Below, piece after piece: positions 41,294 through 44,988 of a stretch of 47,753 nt of DNA. How positions within the stretch are numbered: the stretch's first letter is position 1; every line of letters begins with the position of its first letter. Under the pieces are notes generated by a model. It saw nothing but the letters and a program-made list of their open reading frames with translations. It was not told the origin of the DNA and ran no database searches. The stretch is taken from positions 1 through 47,753 of the forward strand of contig QIJL01000430.1 in assembly GCA_003232435.1 (NCBI GenBank), read 5' to 3'. This DNA comes from Flavobacteriales bacterium. GTDB lineage: Bacteria > Bacteroidota > Bacteroidia > Flavobacteriales > Flavobacteriaceae. The position numbers and the translations under genes were made by a program.

Positions 41294-41752
41294 TTATTGG
41301 CCCTGCAATATTTGCATCGCATGATCTTTTGCCTTTACCTTGTCGATAATCTTGATTACCAATCCATTACCGTCAATTACGAACGTTTTTCTATGGATTC
41401 CGTCAAAAGTGCGGCCCATAAATTTTTTCTTGCCCCAGACCCCGAAAATATTAAGTATAGTATGGTCTACATCAGCCAATAACGGGTAAGGGAAGTCAAA
41501 TTTCTTTTTAAAATTGGACTGTCTTTTCTGGGAATCGGCACTTACACCCAATAATTCATAGCCAAGATCTTGTAACTCTTTATAATTGTCCCGTAGGTTA
41601 CAAGCCTCAACGGTACAAGTAGGCGTATTGGCCTTCGGGTAGAAAAAAACGATCAATTTTTTTCCTTTAAAATCGGACAATTTGATTTCATTTCCGTCTT
41701 GGTCAAAACTGCTGAATTCTGTGACCTTATCCCCTACTTTCAACACATTCAT
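41294..41752 (-). CDS. bcp: Thioredoxin-dependent thiol peroxidase (Bcp/PrxQ)
   Basis: 152 residues, peroxiredoxin fold. FFYPKANTPTCTVEACNLRD carries the peroxidatic Cys (TPTC) and a resolving Cys five residues later, the PrxQ alpha2 arrangement. It reduces hydroperoxides in the cytosol. It converges on the 489-residue gene with a 14-bp gap. Confidence 0.95.
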   Translation of the reverse strand: MNVLKVGDKVTEFSSFDQDGNEIKLSDFKGKKLIVFFYPKANTPTCTVEACNLRDNYKELQDLGYELLGVSADSQKRQSNFKKKFDFPYPLLADVDHTILNIFGVWGKKKFMGRTFDGIHRKTFVIDGNGLVIKIIDKVKAKDHAMQILQGQ

Positions 41753-42038: not shown

Positions 42039-42701
42039 ATGACCAAAGCCGAAAAGGTAGATTTTACCATAAAGACCCTTCGGGAATTGTATCCTGAAAT
42101 ACCGGTTCCTTTGGAGCATAAAGACCCATATACCTTACTTGTTGCCGTTTTAATGTCCGCTCGGAGTACAGATGTTCGCGTCAATAAAATAACCCCGTTA
42201 TTGTTCGAAAAAGCTGATAATCCGTACGACATGGTTAAGTTATCCGTGGAGGAAATCCGTGAAATTATCAAACCGGTCGGACTATCGCCGATGAAGTCGA
42301 AGGGAATTCATGGGCTTTCGAAAATATTGATTGAAAAGTATGATGGAAAGGTTCCTAAAGAAATTGAACTTTTAGAAGAATTTCCTTCTGTAGGCCATAA
42401 AACTGCAAGCGTGGTAGTTTCACAGGCATTTGGTATTCCTGCTTTTCCAGTTGACACCCATATCCATAGACTAATGTATCGCTGGGGCTTCTCGAACGGC
42501 AAAAATGTCGTTCAGACCGAAAAAGACGCCAAACGATTGTTTTCCAAAGATTTATGGAATGATTTACATCTTCAGATAATTTGGTACGGTCGTGAATATT
42601 CCCCAGCACGAGGTTGGAATCTCGAAAAGGACATTATCACGAAAACCATCGGTAGAAAAAAAGTCGTAGACGCTTATTACAAAACAAAAAAGACCCGCTA
42701 A
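42039..42701 (+). CDS. nth: Endonuclease III lacking the Fe-S cluster
   Basis: 220 residues with the helix-hairpin-helix and catalytic residues of Nth: EEFPSVGHKTASVVVSQAF (catalytic Lys) and FPVDTHIHRLMYRWG (catalytic Asp). The C-terminal C-x6-C-x2-C-x5-C cluster of canonical Nth is missing; this region reads REYSPARGWNLEKDIITKT. It is a DNA glycosylase/AP-lyase for oxidised pyrimidines, predicted active without a [4Fe-4S] cluster. A bidirectional terminator overlaps its end. Confidence 0.9.
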   Translation: MTKAEKVDFTIKTLRELYPEIPVPLEHKDPYTLLVAVLMSARSTDVRVNKITPLLFEKADNPYDMVKLSVEEIREIIKPVGLSPMKSKGIHGLSKILIEKYDGKVPKEIELLEEFPSVGHKTASVVVSQAFGIPAFPVDTHIHRLMYRWGFSNGKNVVQTEKDAKRLFSKDLWNDLHLQIIWYGREYSPARGWNLEKDIITKTIGRKKVVDAYYKTKKTR

Positions 42702-42713
42702 CGGGTCTTTTTC
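42686..42713. terminator. Bidirectional terminator between nth and the microprotein gene
   Basis: AAAAAGACCCG-CTAA-CGGGTCTTTTT: an 8-bp GC-containing stem with A and T runs on both sides. It can stop nth on the plus strand and the sigma/microprotein unit on the minus strand. Confidence 0.85.
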
Positions 42714-42752: not shown

Positions 42753-42896
42753 TTAGTTCAAACTGCCTTCAAATGTAAATTCGGCATGTCTTACGATGTG
42801 CAAAGACTTGGAAAAGTTCAGTAAAAACTTGACTGTTTCCGGCGAAGCTTTCGCAAGACCGTACTTTTTAGGGTACTCAGAGTAGATTTTTTCCAT
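42753..42896 (-). CDS. 47-residue microprotein A downstream of a sigma factor
   Basis: It reads MEKIYSEYPKKYGLAKASPE, then TVKFLLNFSKSLHI, ending FEGSLN. It lies 73 bp after the sigma factor stop. A paralogue in the same position after the second sigma factor shares IYSE, KK, PETV, FLLN, SKSL and the FES/G-LN ending, so both are under protein-level constraint and real genes. There is no signal or span. A role in sigma control is possible but inferred from position only. Confidence 0.75.
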   Translation of the reverse strand: MEKIYSEYPKKYGLAKASPETVKFLLNFSKSLHIVRHAEFTFEGSLN

Positions 42897-42969
42897 ATCG
42901 ATTATATCTAGTTATGTTATAATAACGCAACCGAAATGGAAATATTGCTTGGTGTGTGCCTTTGTATTA

Positions 42970-43551
42970 CTAGTTGGTAAGTACGATATTATTCTTGTCG
43001 ATTATTTTTCTAAGGTTGATCAGGGCATATCGCATCCTACCTAGAGCGGTATTGATACTTACGCCGGTATTTTCAGAGATTTCCTTGAAACTCATATCCT
43101 TGTATATGCGCATCAAAAGAACTTCTCGCTGATCATCGGGCAATTCGTCTATTAAATACCTCAGATCGGTATTTATCTGGTCTTTGATGATCTGCTTTTC
43201 GGCATTCAATTTATCGTCTCCTATTACTGAAAAGATATTGAAATCATCACTGCCTTCGAACATTGGCATTCTTTTGTTCTTTCTAAAGTGATCGATGATC
43301 AAGTTATGTGCGATTCTCATGACCCAAGGTAAAAATTTACCTTCTTCACTATAAGATCCTTTTTTAAGGGTTTTGATAACCTTGATAAAAGTATCTTGAA
43401 AAATGTCTTCGGTAATGTCCCTATCCAAAACTTTTGAGTAGATAAAGCTCGAAATACGTTGGTTGTGTCGGTTGATCAGAACTTCGAGTGATTTTTCGTC
43501 TCCTGAAATGTAGTCTCTAACTAGTACTGAATCTTCAATTTGTAGGTTCAT
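42970..43551 (-). CDS. ECF-type sigma-70 factor A
   Basis: 193 residues: region 2 (about 20-90, SSFIYSKVLDRDITEDIFQDTF and FLPWVMRIAHNLIIDHFR) and region 4 (about 135-185, LPDDQREVLLMRIYKDMSFKEI with the helix-turn-helix ENTGVSINTALGRMRYAL). No classic anti-sigma gene is adjacent. The paralogue at 44174 has nearly the same region 4, so both probably recognise the same promoters. It is followed by microprotein A. Confidence 0.92.
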   Translation of the reverse strand: MNLQIEDSVLVRDYISGDEKSLEVLINRHNQRISSFIYSKVLDRDITEDIFQDTFIKVIKTLKKGSYSEEGKFLPWVMRIAHNLIIDHFRKNKRMPMFEGSDDFNIFSVIGDDKLNAEKQIIKDQINTDLRYLIDELPDDQREVLLMRIYKDMSFKEISENTGVSINTALGRMRYALINLRKIIDKNNIVLTN

Positions 43552-43902
43552 ACAGATTGTAATTTTTGGTTAAGATGAGTGCTTTCTTGAGGGAAAGCTT
43601 TTTTAAGCTATTAGTCCAATTTTCGAAACAATTTTTATTGATATAAATCGTTTCCATTTTTTAATTATGACCTAAAACTAGAGAAAAGGGGGTATCTGGA
43701 AAAAACATTGTTGTAAAACGACCGCTTTTTGATGTGAAACGGCGTTTTTCCAATTTTCCGGCAAATTTAGTGAGTCGGAAACGGTAATAATAATATAAGA
43801 AAATACATCTATCTTAATTTGACTTAATGATATACCCGTCCAAAAATAAAGCAGCTCAAGAGTAGACAACTTGTAGTAGTATGTAATTGATTTAATAGCA
43901 AT

Positions 43903-43936
43903 AAAAAATCCCCAAACTTGAAATCAAGCTTGGGGA
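43903..43936 (-). terminator. Terminator after microprotein B
   Basis: On the minus strand CCCCAAGCTTG pairs with CAAGTTTGGGG across ATTT and is followed by ATTTTTT. It ends the second sigma/microprotein unit. The remainder of the 43552-43956 spacer shows no gene. Confidence 0.85.
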
Positions 43937-43956
43937 GATATCGATGTATTTCCGGT

Positions 43957-44100
43957 CTAGTTCAAATTACTCTCGAACTTAAGGCCTTCGGCTTCTGTAA
44001 TTTTCAAAGACTTTGAATAGTTCAGCAAAAATTGAACAGTCTCGGGCTTGGCCTTTACCAGTTTACACTTTTTCCTATCTTCAGAGTAAATTTCCTTCAT
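43957..44100 (-). CDS. 47-residue microprotein B downstream of a sigma factor
   Basis: It reads MKEIYSEDRKKCKLVKAKPE, then TVQFLLNYSKSLKI, ending FESNLN. Same length as microprotein A and same 73-bp distance from its sigma factor. One Cys at position 12 is not shared. The function is unknown. Confidence 0.78.
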   Translation of the reverse strand: MKEIYSEDRKKCKLVKAKPETVQFLLNYSKSLKITEAEGLKFESNLN

Positions 44101-44173
44101 ATCGCTTTTGTTTTGTTATATAAGGATAACGCAACGAAAGCCAATATAATAATTCTATTCGACAGGTAGTCTA

Positions 44174-44758
44174 TTAATTCGTCAAAACAATGTTATTCTC
44201 TTCAATGATCTTTCTGAGGTTGATAAGTGCGTAGCGCATCCTGCCCAGGGCAGTATTGATACTAACGCCCGTGTTTTCTGAGATCTCCTTAAAACTCATG
44301 TCTTTATAAATGCGCATATTGAGCACTTCTTTCTGGTCTTCCGGCAACTCATCGATCAAAATGCCCAAATCAACATCGATCTGTTCTTTGATCAATTGTC
44401 CCTCAATATTCAAGCGTTCATCGCTTATTATTGAAAATACGTCAAAATTGTTGGTTCCCTCGAAAAAAGGCATTCGACTGCTCTTTCTGAAATAGTCGAT
44501 AATAAGATTGTGCGCTATGCGCATGACCCATGGCAAGAATTTACCCTCTTCGTTATACGTGCCTCTTTTTAGGGTACGTATTACCTTGATAAAGGTATCT
44601 TGAAATATGTCTTCCGTAATCTCGCGGTCACCGACCTTTGAATAAATAAAACTACTTAATCTTTGGTTGTGGCGATTGATAAGAGTATTGAGGGCTCGTT
44701 CATTGCCCTGAGCGTACAGTCTAATAAGTTGGGAGTCTTCAATAAGGTGTGTTTCCAT
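44174..44758 (-). CDS. ECF-type sigma-70 factor B
   Basis: 194 residues, clearly paralogous to the sigma factor at 42970: about three quarters identical by eye, with the last 45 residues (MRIYKDMSFKEISENTGVSI onward) almost unchanged. Regions 2 and 4 are intact. The N-terminus and the linker differ most, so the two may be controlled differently while reading the same promoters. Confidence 0.92.
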   Translation of the reverse strand: METHLIEDSQLIRLYAQGNERALNTLINRHNQRLSSFIYSKVGDREITEDIFQDTFIKVIRTLKRGTYNEEGKFLPWVMRIAHNLIIDYFRKSSRMPFFEGTNNFDVFSIISDERLNIEGQLIKEQIDVDLGILIDELPEDQKEVLNMRIYKDMSFKEISENTGVSINTALGRMRYALINLRKIIEENNIVLTN

Positions 44759-44988
44759 AACAACTACTTTTCTTGGTTAAAACTAGGATAATCAGTTACC
44801 ATTTAATGTTACAATGGACGTTTAGGTTGATCTCTAATTTTAAAAAAAGTAATTGTTCTCTATAGGCACCAATTGTGAAAGTGAACTTCAAATATAGAAA
44901 AAATAATGTGATACGAACAAATTTAGCCTGCAAGAAGTTGTTTTTTGATTCGTAATCAGGTTTGTTCGCTATTGAGATTTTCAAGTCG

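Follow-up and report, generated by a model that had tools for sequence, protein, structure and literature searches.

Sigma factor cassettes with a 47-codon gene

This article concerns two tandem cassettes, each combining a gene for an extracytoplasmic function (ECF) sigma factor with a 47-codon open reading frame (ORF), in a stretch of DNA from a Flavobacteriales bacterium of the family Flavobacteriaceae. The stretch, here called the window, covers positions 1 to 47,753 of contig QIJL01000430.1 (assembly GCA_003232435.1). Both cassettes lie on the minus strand of the interval between uvrA and nth, and each is built up of a sigma gene, a 73-nucleotide (nt) spacer, the 47-codon ORF and a hairpin. 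The encoded microproteins, mA and mB, are probably minimal soluble relatives of anti-sigma factors, and the evidence for this and for rival explanations is considered below. The components of the cassettes are as follows.

44174..44758, minus strand: sA, ECF sigma factor gene, first, uvrA-proximal copy, 194 amino acids (Pfam match and orthologue search)
44101..44173, minus strand: spacer A, 73 nt; CGTTAT occupies 44126-44131 and lies 31 nt ahead of the mA start codon
43957..44100, minus strand: mA, 47-residue microprotein of the A cassette (homologue in all 158 units; family dN/dS 0.19)
43909..43936, minus strand: intrinsic-terminator-like hairpin and T run after mA (fold)
42970..43551, minus strand: sB, ECF sigma factor gene, second copy, 193 amino acids (Pfam match)
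42897..42969, minus strand: spacer B, 73 nt, with the two-box element CAATA-N15-CGTTA at 42923-42947
42753..42896, minus strand: mB, 47-residue microprotein of the B cassette (ORF and homologue searches)
42690..42713, minus strand: bidirectional terminator-like hairpin with T run, common to mB and nth (fold)

The partner genes encode ECF sigma-70 factors with regions 2 and 4 (TIGR02937 sigma70-ECF, 88 bits against a cut-off of 42.9), and the Pfam matches of sA (Sigma70_r2 3e-15, r4_2 9e-10) and sB (4e-14 and 3e-11, respectively) all exceed the cut-offs. A SigP/T9SS identity was considered as a candidate for the sigma factor in the light of PMC7712824. An initial annotation, made from the sequence, had described two tandem ECF sigma genes each followed, exactly 73 nt downstream, by a 47-residue ORF, and the coordinates bear this out. 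The two microproteins are 57% identical and both carry the motifs that it listed, IYSE, PETV, FLLN, SKSL and the terminal LN. The terminators that it placed at the end of each unit also find support, in that a terminator-like hairpin with a T run follows both cassettes; the A hairpin folds at -20.3 kcal/mol (z -5.5; none of 200 shuffles equally good) and the B hairpin at -12.7 kcal/mol (z -2.3; 5/200 shuffles equally good). Neither mA nor mB matched any Pfam or NCBIfam family, a comparison of the microprotein with PDB sequences gave nothing significant (best E 1), and a search of the assembly, 84% complete, revealed only these two copies. A 40-residue ORF overlapping the start of sB (43535-43657) was set aside; by eye, it was not kept in 13 other second-copy upstream regions.

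Conservation and linkage of the microprotein gene

Homologues were collected with a microprotein model seeded by mA and mB alone, the units deriving from loci L001 and L003-L111, with L002 left out as a duplicate stretch of L001. They number 158, of which 120, in 80 contigs, were fetched by sigma similarity alone and 38 lie in loci fetched via the microprotein. The ORF is present downstream of sigma in every unit, including all 120 in the sigma-selected loci. Once longer called frames (27/158 units) had been trimmed to an internal ATG, the length was 47 residues in 131/158 units, with the short form ranging overall from 44 to 50, and the start codon lay 52-77 nt past the sigma stop in 146/158. 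Thus the conserved spacing claimed initially holds at 73 nt for both window units and is not fixed across units. Length changes by whole codons only, and the C-terminal residue is N in 158/158 units, preceded by L to give LN in 142.

Selection was estimated from 19 disjoint close pairs encompassing 897 codons. The ratio of nonsynonymous to synonymous substitution rates (dN/dS) is 0.194 for the microprotein and, in the same pairs, 0.048 for sigma. Of the 360 microprotein differences, 205 fall at third positions (p = 4e-20), and the two off-frames yield ratios of 1.30 and 1.15. A single pair, L018-L109, which is divergent, shows dN > dS for the microprotein and was retained in the totals. The initial annotation had named two observations that would count against a function, namely homologous spacers in related genomes that lack the ORF and substitutions without codon-position bias; the homologous spacers retain the ORF, and the bias is strong.

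The linkage extends through the order. Of 296 genomes drawn evenly from it, 229 contain the sigma protein and 181 are matched by the microprotein model; when the tables were compared by hand, 180 genomes carried both, 49 carried sigma only, and one (G196), with no sigma match, gave a weak microprotein match, E 0.0097, which was rejected as chance. Twenty of the 49 sigma-only genomes were fetched, none of whose loci are contained in the search models, and a downstream homologue was found in 18 of them at E <= 1e-3, with 0/20 in the antisense control. The two exceptions are L298, with a downstream E of only 0.052, and L308, with no match. Homologue frames in these 20 loci begin, as called, 28-153 nt past the sigma stop. 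Unlinked weak matches in G108, G123 and G187 (L192, L194, L195) were rejected as chance. The microprotein ORF is therefore a real gene, linked to sigma and under purifying selection, and we infer that it is translated in the cell and that the neighbouring sigma factor is its cognate partner.

Duplicated and separated copies

In the 48 two-copy loci, first copies have a first copy as nearest neighbour in 44/48 cases for sigma and 47/48 for the microprotein, and second copies have a second copy in 48/48 for both proteins, counts that are inflated by near-duplicate loci (e.g., L003 and L059). It appears that a single event, in an ancestor of the group, duplicated the entire cassette. This co-duplication, together with the purifying selection and the occurrence of the ORF in all 120 units of sigma-selected loci, upholds the earlier proposal that sigma and microprotein form a functional pair.

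The two genes have also become separated. In genome G331 (L171:1436-1633 and L204) the sigma gene lies next to an IS1182-type transposase gene at about 2.03 Mb on contig C1, and an intact partner ORF of 65 residues is kept before nth at about 0.56 Mb, some 1.5 Mb from sigma; its survival there is as expected if the product acts in trans. A second unlinking is seen in G087, where a microprotein homologue (L163:1439-1595) occurs with no sigma gene in the 3.1 kb fetched, and the sigma gene of that genome lies elsewhere.

A size series of sigma-linked proteins across the phylum

An even draw of 292 genomes from the phylum yielded a sigma orthologue in 140 at E <= 1e-35, with 36 from the order, 34 from other orders of the class and 70 from other classes. 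Downstream regions were read at 59 sigma loci, comprising every one of the 34 from other orders of the class, 24 of the 70 from other classes and one second copy (L256). A homologue was assigned in 41/59 by models built partly from the same loci, such that this figure is a classification and not an independent test; the antisense control, 0/59, is independent.

In 23 of the 24 loci from the other classes, sigma is followed by a protein of 180-291 amino acids, its start ranging from 35 nt ahead of to 48 nt past the last base of the sigma stop codon, and the N-terminal segment of these proteins is conserved. On the basis of a Kyte-Doolittle window alone, a membrane-helix-like stretch of 19 residues with a mean hydropathy of at least 1.6 is present in 19 of these 23 proteins, the other four reaching 1.0-1.5. 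The ORF 19 nt past the sigma stop in L245 seems to carry the N-terminal segment twice in tandem, and that of L247 contains several loosely similar repeats and gave no match to the models.

The other orders of the class show soluble downstream forms in 18/34 sigma loci, in three size groups:

59-83 amino acids as called: L213, L219, L222, L223, L226, L228, L230, L233
64-70 amino acids: L168-L170, L205-L208
39-43 amino acids: L218, L225, L229

In 16 loci of these orders no homologue follows sigma: nine belong to family f18, five to f19, one to f20 and one to f17, the last with an IS1182 transposase downstream. No recognisable partner ORF was seen within 900 nt downstream in the f18 loci L210, L217, L220, L221, L224, L227, L231, L232 and L234 or in the f19 loci L209, L212, L214, L215 and L216, and sigma in these f18 and f19 loci may be unregulated or controlled by an unlinked protein.

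Within the order itself, forms of about 88-90 amino acids in families f8 and f14 unite an anti-sigma-like N-terminal part with the LN-ending tail. Both parts are present in L155, L156, L295, L297, L303, L304, L305 and L309, of which the last six are the f8 forms, 88-95 amino acids as called. The proteins at this position can thus be ordered by size, from 180-291 amino acids in other classes, through soluble forms of about 60-90 and forms of 39-70, to the 44-50 residues of the short form.

The gene neighbourhood gives some support for a common origin, since the sigma-partner pairs of L205, L219, L222 and L223 are likewise followed by nth (confirmed for L205 and L219). In those loci nth shares the strand of sigma, and in the window it is convergent. 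The neighbouring genes of the window are:

45014 onward, plus strand: uvrA, flanking the tandem cassettes
42039..42701, plus strand: nth, endonuclease III, convergent with the cassettes (TIGR01083, 8e-59)
41294..41752, minus strand: thiol peroxidase gene, beyond nth

Profile links to anti-sigma factors

Profiles of the short, intermediate and long forms, and of two anti-sigma-like groups of the longer proteins from other classes, T and T2, were compared, each comparison being set against 60 column-shuffled controls, which are the real yardstick because the E-values are pairwise. The results form a chain:

Short and intermediate: E 1.6e-12, score 55.5, control maximum 16.8
Intermediate and long: E 9.5e-7, score 35.1, control maximum 16.0
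Long and group T: E 6e-9, score 48.5, control maximum 17.0
Long and group T2: E 3.6e-11, score 60.8, control maximum 14.3
Long and short directly: E 6.4e-5, score 25.9, control maximum 13.8

With the bridging forms left out, the soluble forms of other orders match the short profile more weakly, at E 2.6e-4. What the short forms share with their relatives is a post-proline segment, PETVxFLLxYSKSL, and the tail.

At the far end of the chain, the four group-T proteins scanned match the NCBIfam model NF052375 'anti-sigma factor' at 1.9e-10, 5.5e-12, 2.4e-10 and 1.7e-13, and two group-T2 proteins at 4.6e-5 and 3.9e-4. The best match of the 88-residue bridge L155 is NF010501/PRK13920 'putative anti-sigmaE protein', at 0.0033. 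When one group-T protein was run against PDB sequences with phmmer, only lymphotoxin/tumour necrosis factor beta and a coiled coil were returned, and these were taken as chance.

From these comparisons, the microprotein looks like the terminal reduction of an anti-sigma factor, homologous to it via intermediates only. The initial annotation had suggested perhaps a new type of sigma modulator, as no standard anti-sigma gene is present; the profile chain revises this in that the microprotein is related to such genes, and its modulating action is putative.

Promoter-like elements

The spacer is itself conserved, with 84% nucleotide identity in 15 equal-length pairs. When 12-nt flanks are included, 157/158 spacers contain CGTT, against 30.5 expected from shuffles, and in 131 of the 157 it lies 29-35 nt before the start codon. 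In second-copy spacers aligned on CGTT, the element CAATA-N15-CGTTA is invariant (48/48), with the bases between the boxes less conserved; in the 62 one-unit loci the CAATA box is conserved to 85-98% per position at the same distance, and in first-copy spacers this -35-like box is degenerate. With its fixed gap and CGT box, this two-box element resembles an ECF promoter. A preference of the A and B copies for different -35 boxes was considered and then abandoned, as the region-4.2 helix is, by inspection, identical in sA and sB.

Counts of the element in five genomes were compared with those of a reversed control and of a wrong gap (18):

Genomes: G000, G001, G002, G003, G034
CAATA-N15-CGTTA: 8, 15, 12, 20, 9
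Reversed control: 13, 20, 26, 12, 17
Wrong gap (18): 9, 9, 10, 23, 12

A large regulon behind the spacer motif is not supported, as the motif is not enriched genome-wide, and the element, if it is a promoter, may therefore serve mainly the microprotein gene.

Upstream of the sigma genes, a different type of box was found. TAnnTTTG, the -7 consensus of the housekeeping sigma-A type (PMC9723704), occurs within 250 nt upstream of sigma in 48/48 first copies, against 7.8 expected from shuffles, and in 51/62 one-unit loci, and in only 2/48 second copies. The corresponding positions in the window are:

44889..44896, minus strand: TATATTTG, sigma-A type -7 box (TAnnTTTG) upstream of sA
43673..43680, minus strand: TAGTTTTA, non-consensus -7-like box at the equivalent position upstream of sB (consensus of 48 B copies)

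The sigma gene thus appears to be read from a housekeeping-type promoter. The region upstream of the second-copy sigma gene (window 43673-43745, minus strand) carries conserved TTTCACATCAAAAA, ACAACA and GTTTTTT blocks in addition to the altered -7 box, and first copies are unlike it; second-copy sigma is possibly under different expression control.

Structure prediction and coevolution

AlphaFold models of read-through fusions of sigma and microprotein place a helix at microprotein residues 19-31, with a predicted local distance difference test (pLDDT) of 85-91 for the block in the deeper run, and the conserved tail is predicted as a beta-hairpin. Foldseek matches among the 50 listed of 343 are sigma factors or complexes named for them and are, therefore, uninformative on the microprotein. 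Mutual information between the two proteins was calculated from 230 distinct pairs, with an effective number of 75 and with lineage effects still included, and the top two pairs link S34 and N30 of sigma region 2 with A17 of the microprotein.

Proposed function and alternatives

The explanation that we favour, and consider probable, is that the 47-residue proteins are minimal soluble anti-sigma factors for the ECF sigma factor encoded just upstream, derived from a class-I-like ancestor. As described in a survey of such factors (PMC7406223), helices 1-3 bind sigma4 in class I complexes and helix 4 binds regions 2.1/2.2 of sigma2, the surface that docks on the clamp. That ancestor would have combined a membrane anchor with a four-helix anti-sigma domain, and the lineage may have lost first the membrane part and next helices 1-3 of the domain. 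What remains would be the helix-4 segment PETVxFLLxYSKSL with a lineage-specific C-terminal tail ending in LN. Since only this segment is left, the simplest model is a cytoplasmic inhibitor covering sigma2, in which helix 4, by analogy with the solved complexes, would sit on regions 2.1/2.2 and keep sigma from docking on the clamp of RNA polymerase.

On the proposed scheme, sigma would be transcribed from its housekeeping-type promoter and the ECF-like element in the spacer would drive the microprotein alone, resulting in a negative feedback loop if the cognate sigma factor reads that element. Because the membrane sensor is gone, the loop would provide homeostatic feedback rather than envelope sensing. 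More tentatively, we suggest that the microprotein acts on its own as an anti-sigma factor of which a single sigma2-binding helix and a short tail are left. It could then rank with the smallest known, accompany its sigma factor almost universally in the Flavobacteriales, go unseen by domain libraries and have its own feedback loop through the ECF promoter in the 73-nt spacer.

Several results weigh against inhibition of sigma by a remnant of an anti-sigma factor. In terms of ancestry, the short profile compared directly with T and T2 gives hhalign E-values of 0.029 and 0.45, so that the link is only transitive, and a comparison of group T with just the two f14 bridges gives 0.0036. Every NCBIfam anti-sigma match falls short of its curated cut-off, and unrelated families are matched weakly alongside; L156 and L295 match 'putative anti-sigmaE protein' only at 0.026, L213, L226 and L304, among six soluble long forms scanned, lack any NCBIfam anti-sigma match, and Pfam shows no anti-sigma domain in any form scanned. 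No homologue follows sigma in 16/34 loci from other orders of the class. In terms of binding, the fusion models have predicted template modelling (pTM) scores of 0.37 and 0.52 with low-confidence docking, pairs between sigma2 and helix 4 account for 7 of the top 50 by mutual information against 8.6 expected, and a lone helix, deprived of the sigma4-binding helices, may bind weakly. Finally, CAATA-N15-CGTTA is not enriched genome-wide, with 64 sites against 88 reversed-control sites in the five genomes.

A rival explanation is a microprotein that binds sigma and helps it, as a co-factor or stabiliser that promotes core binding or gives protection from proteolysis, and that derives from an anti-sigma factor stripped of its inhibitory helices. 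The sigma4-binding part of class I complexes, helices 1-3 (PMC7406223), is gone, and strict linkage and purifying selection are compatible with either sign of action. We nevertheless think a helper role unlikely, given that helix 4 occupies the clamp surface of sigma in known complexes (PMC7406223), and that the longer relatives match anti-sigma models.

It is less likely still that the microprotein has moved to another partner, such as a protease adaptor, RNA polymerase or a different sigma factor, and is merely co-regulated with the sigma gene. The homologues of G331 and G087 do lie away from sigma, and the C-terminal tail is both lineage-specific and conserved, but the microprotein adjoins sigma in nearly all Flavobacteriales loci read and the copies were duplicated together and have stayed matched. 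That the ORF is untranslated, the conservation reflecting an RNA element or a frame arisen by chance in the 3' untranslated region, is hardly credible even with a conserved spacer, in view of the third-position bias (p = 4e-20), a dN/dS of 0.19 with off-frames near 1.2, whole-codon length changes and the terminal N in 158/158 units.

Relation to known anti-sigma factors

A minimal anti-sigma factor would be of interest for the regulation of Bacteroidetes ECF sigma factors more generally. The survey reports that only 6% of these have a class I anti-sigma factor (ASDI) nearby, against a 32% average, and leaves open how the rest are controlled (PMC7406223). It also states that ASDIs shorter than 50 amino acids were dropped, so that a 47-residue form would have been excluded. 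The present ECF lineage is deeply conserved and has a partner that is present but shrunken below this size limit, which, if the proposed function is correct, would fill part of the reported gap. We found no description of the microprotein in searches of open-licence papers. The natural, stepwise series from long, probably membrane-anchored proteins to a remnant of 44-50 amino acids allows one to ask directly which part of an anti-sigma domain suffices to control a sigma factor and, if the single-helix inhibitor is real, it could provide a compact part for engineered gene switches.

Among small regulators, CnrY of class II also has a very short sigma-binding part, and its last helix binds sigma2 in the manner of ASDI helix 4 (PMC7406223); however, CnrY has two sigma-binding helices and the microprotein has one predicted helix and a beta-hairpin. 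CsfB/Gin of B. subtilis and the NepR-type proteins are likewise small soluble anti-sigma proteins, but the microprotein has no significant match to any PDB sequence.

The closest comparison is with the ASDIs, which include RseA, ChrR, RskA and RsiW. As with these, the gene lies directly downstream of the ECF sigma gene, and the longer homologues carry an N-terminal pattern, YxxGE..L..D..L...Y..L...K..L, and a post-proline helix, as would be expected of helices 1-4. The window protein, unlike the ASDIs, has the putative helix-4 segment only, with neither helices 1-3 nor a membrane helix and, by inspection, it lacks the Hx3Cx2C zinc motif; nor does it match a domain model. NF052375 and NF010501/PRK13920 are the best curated matches of the four group-T proteins scanned and of L155, respectively, and the 47-residue forms match neither. 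Common ancestry is apparent only through the intermediates and the sub-cut-off group-T matches, and in place of a four-helix bundle the 47-residue forms align to the helix-4 segment and tail and have one predicted helix. The microprotein is, on this comparison, homologous to the anti-sigma factors, falls short of their four-helix domain and probably works like their helix 4.

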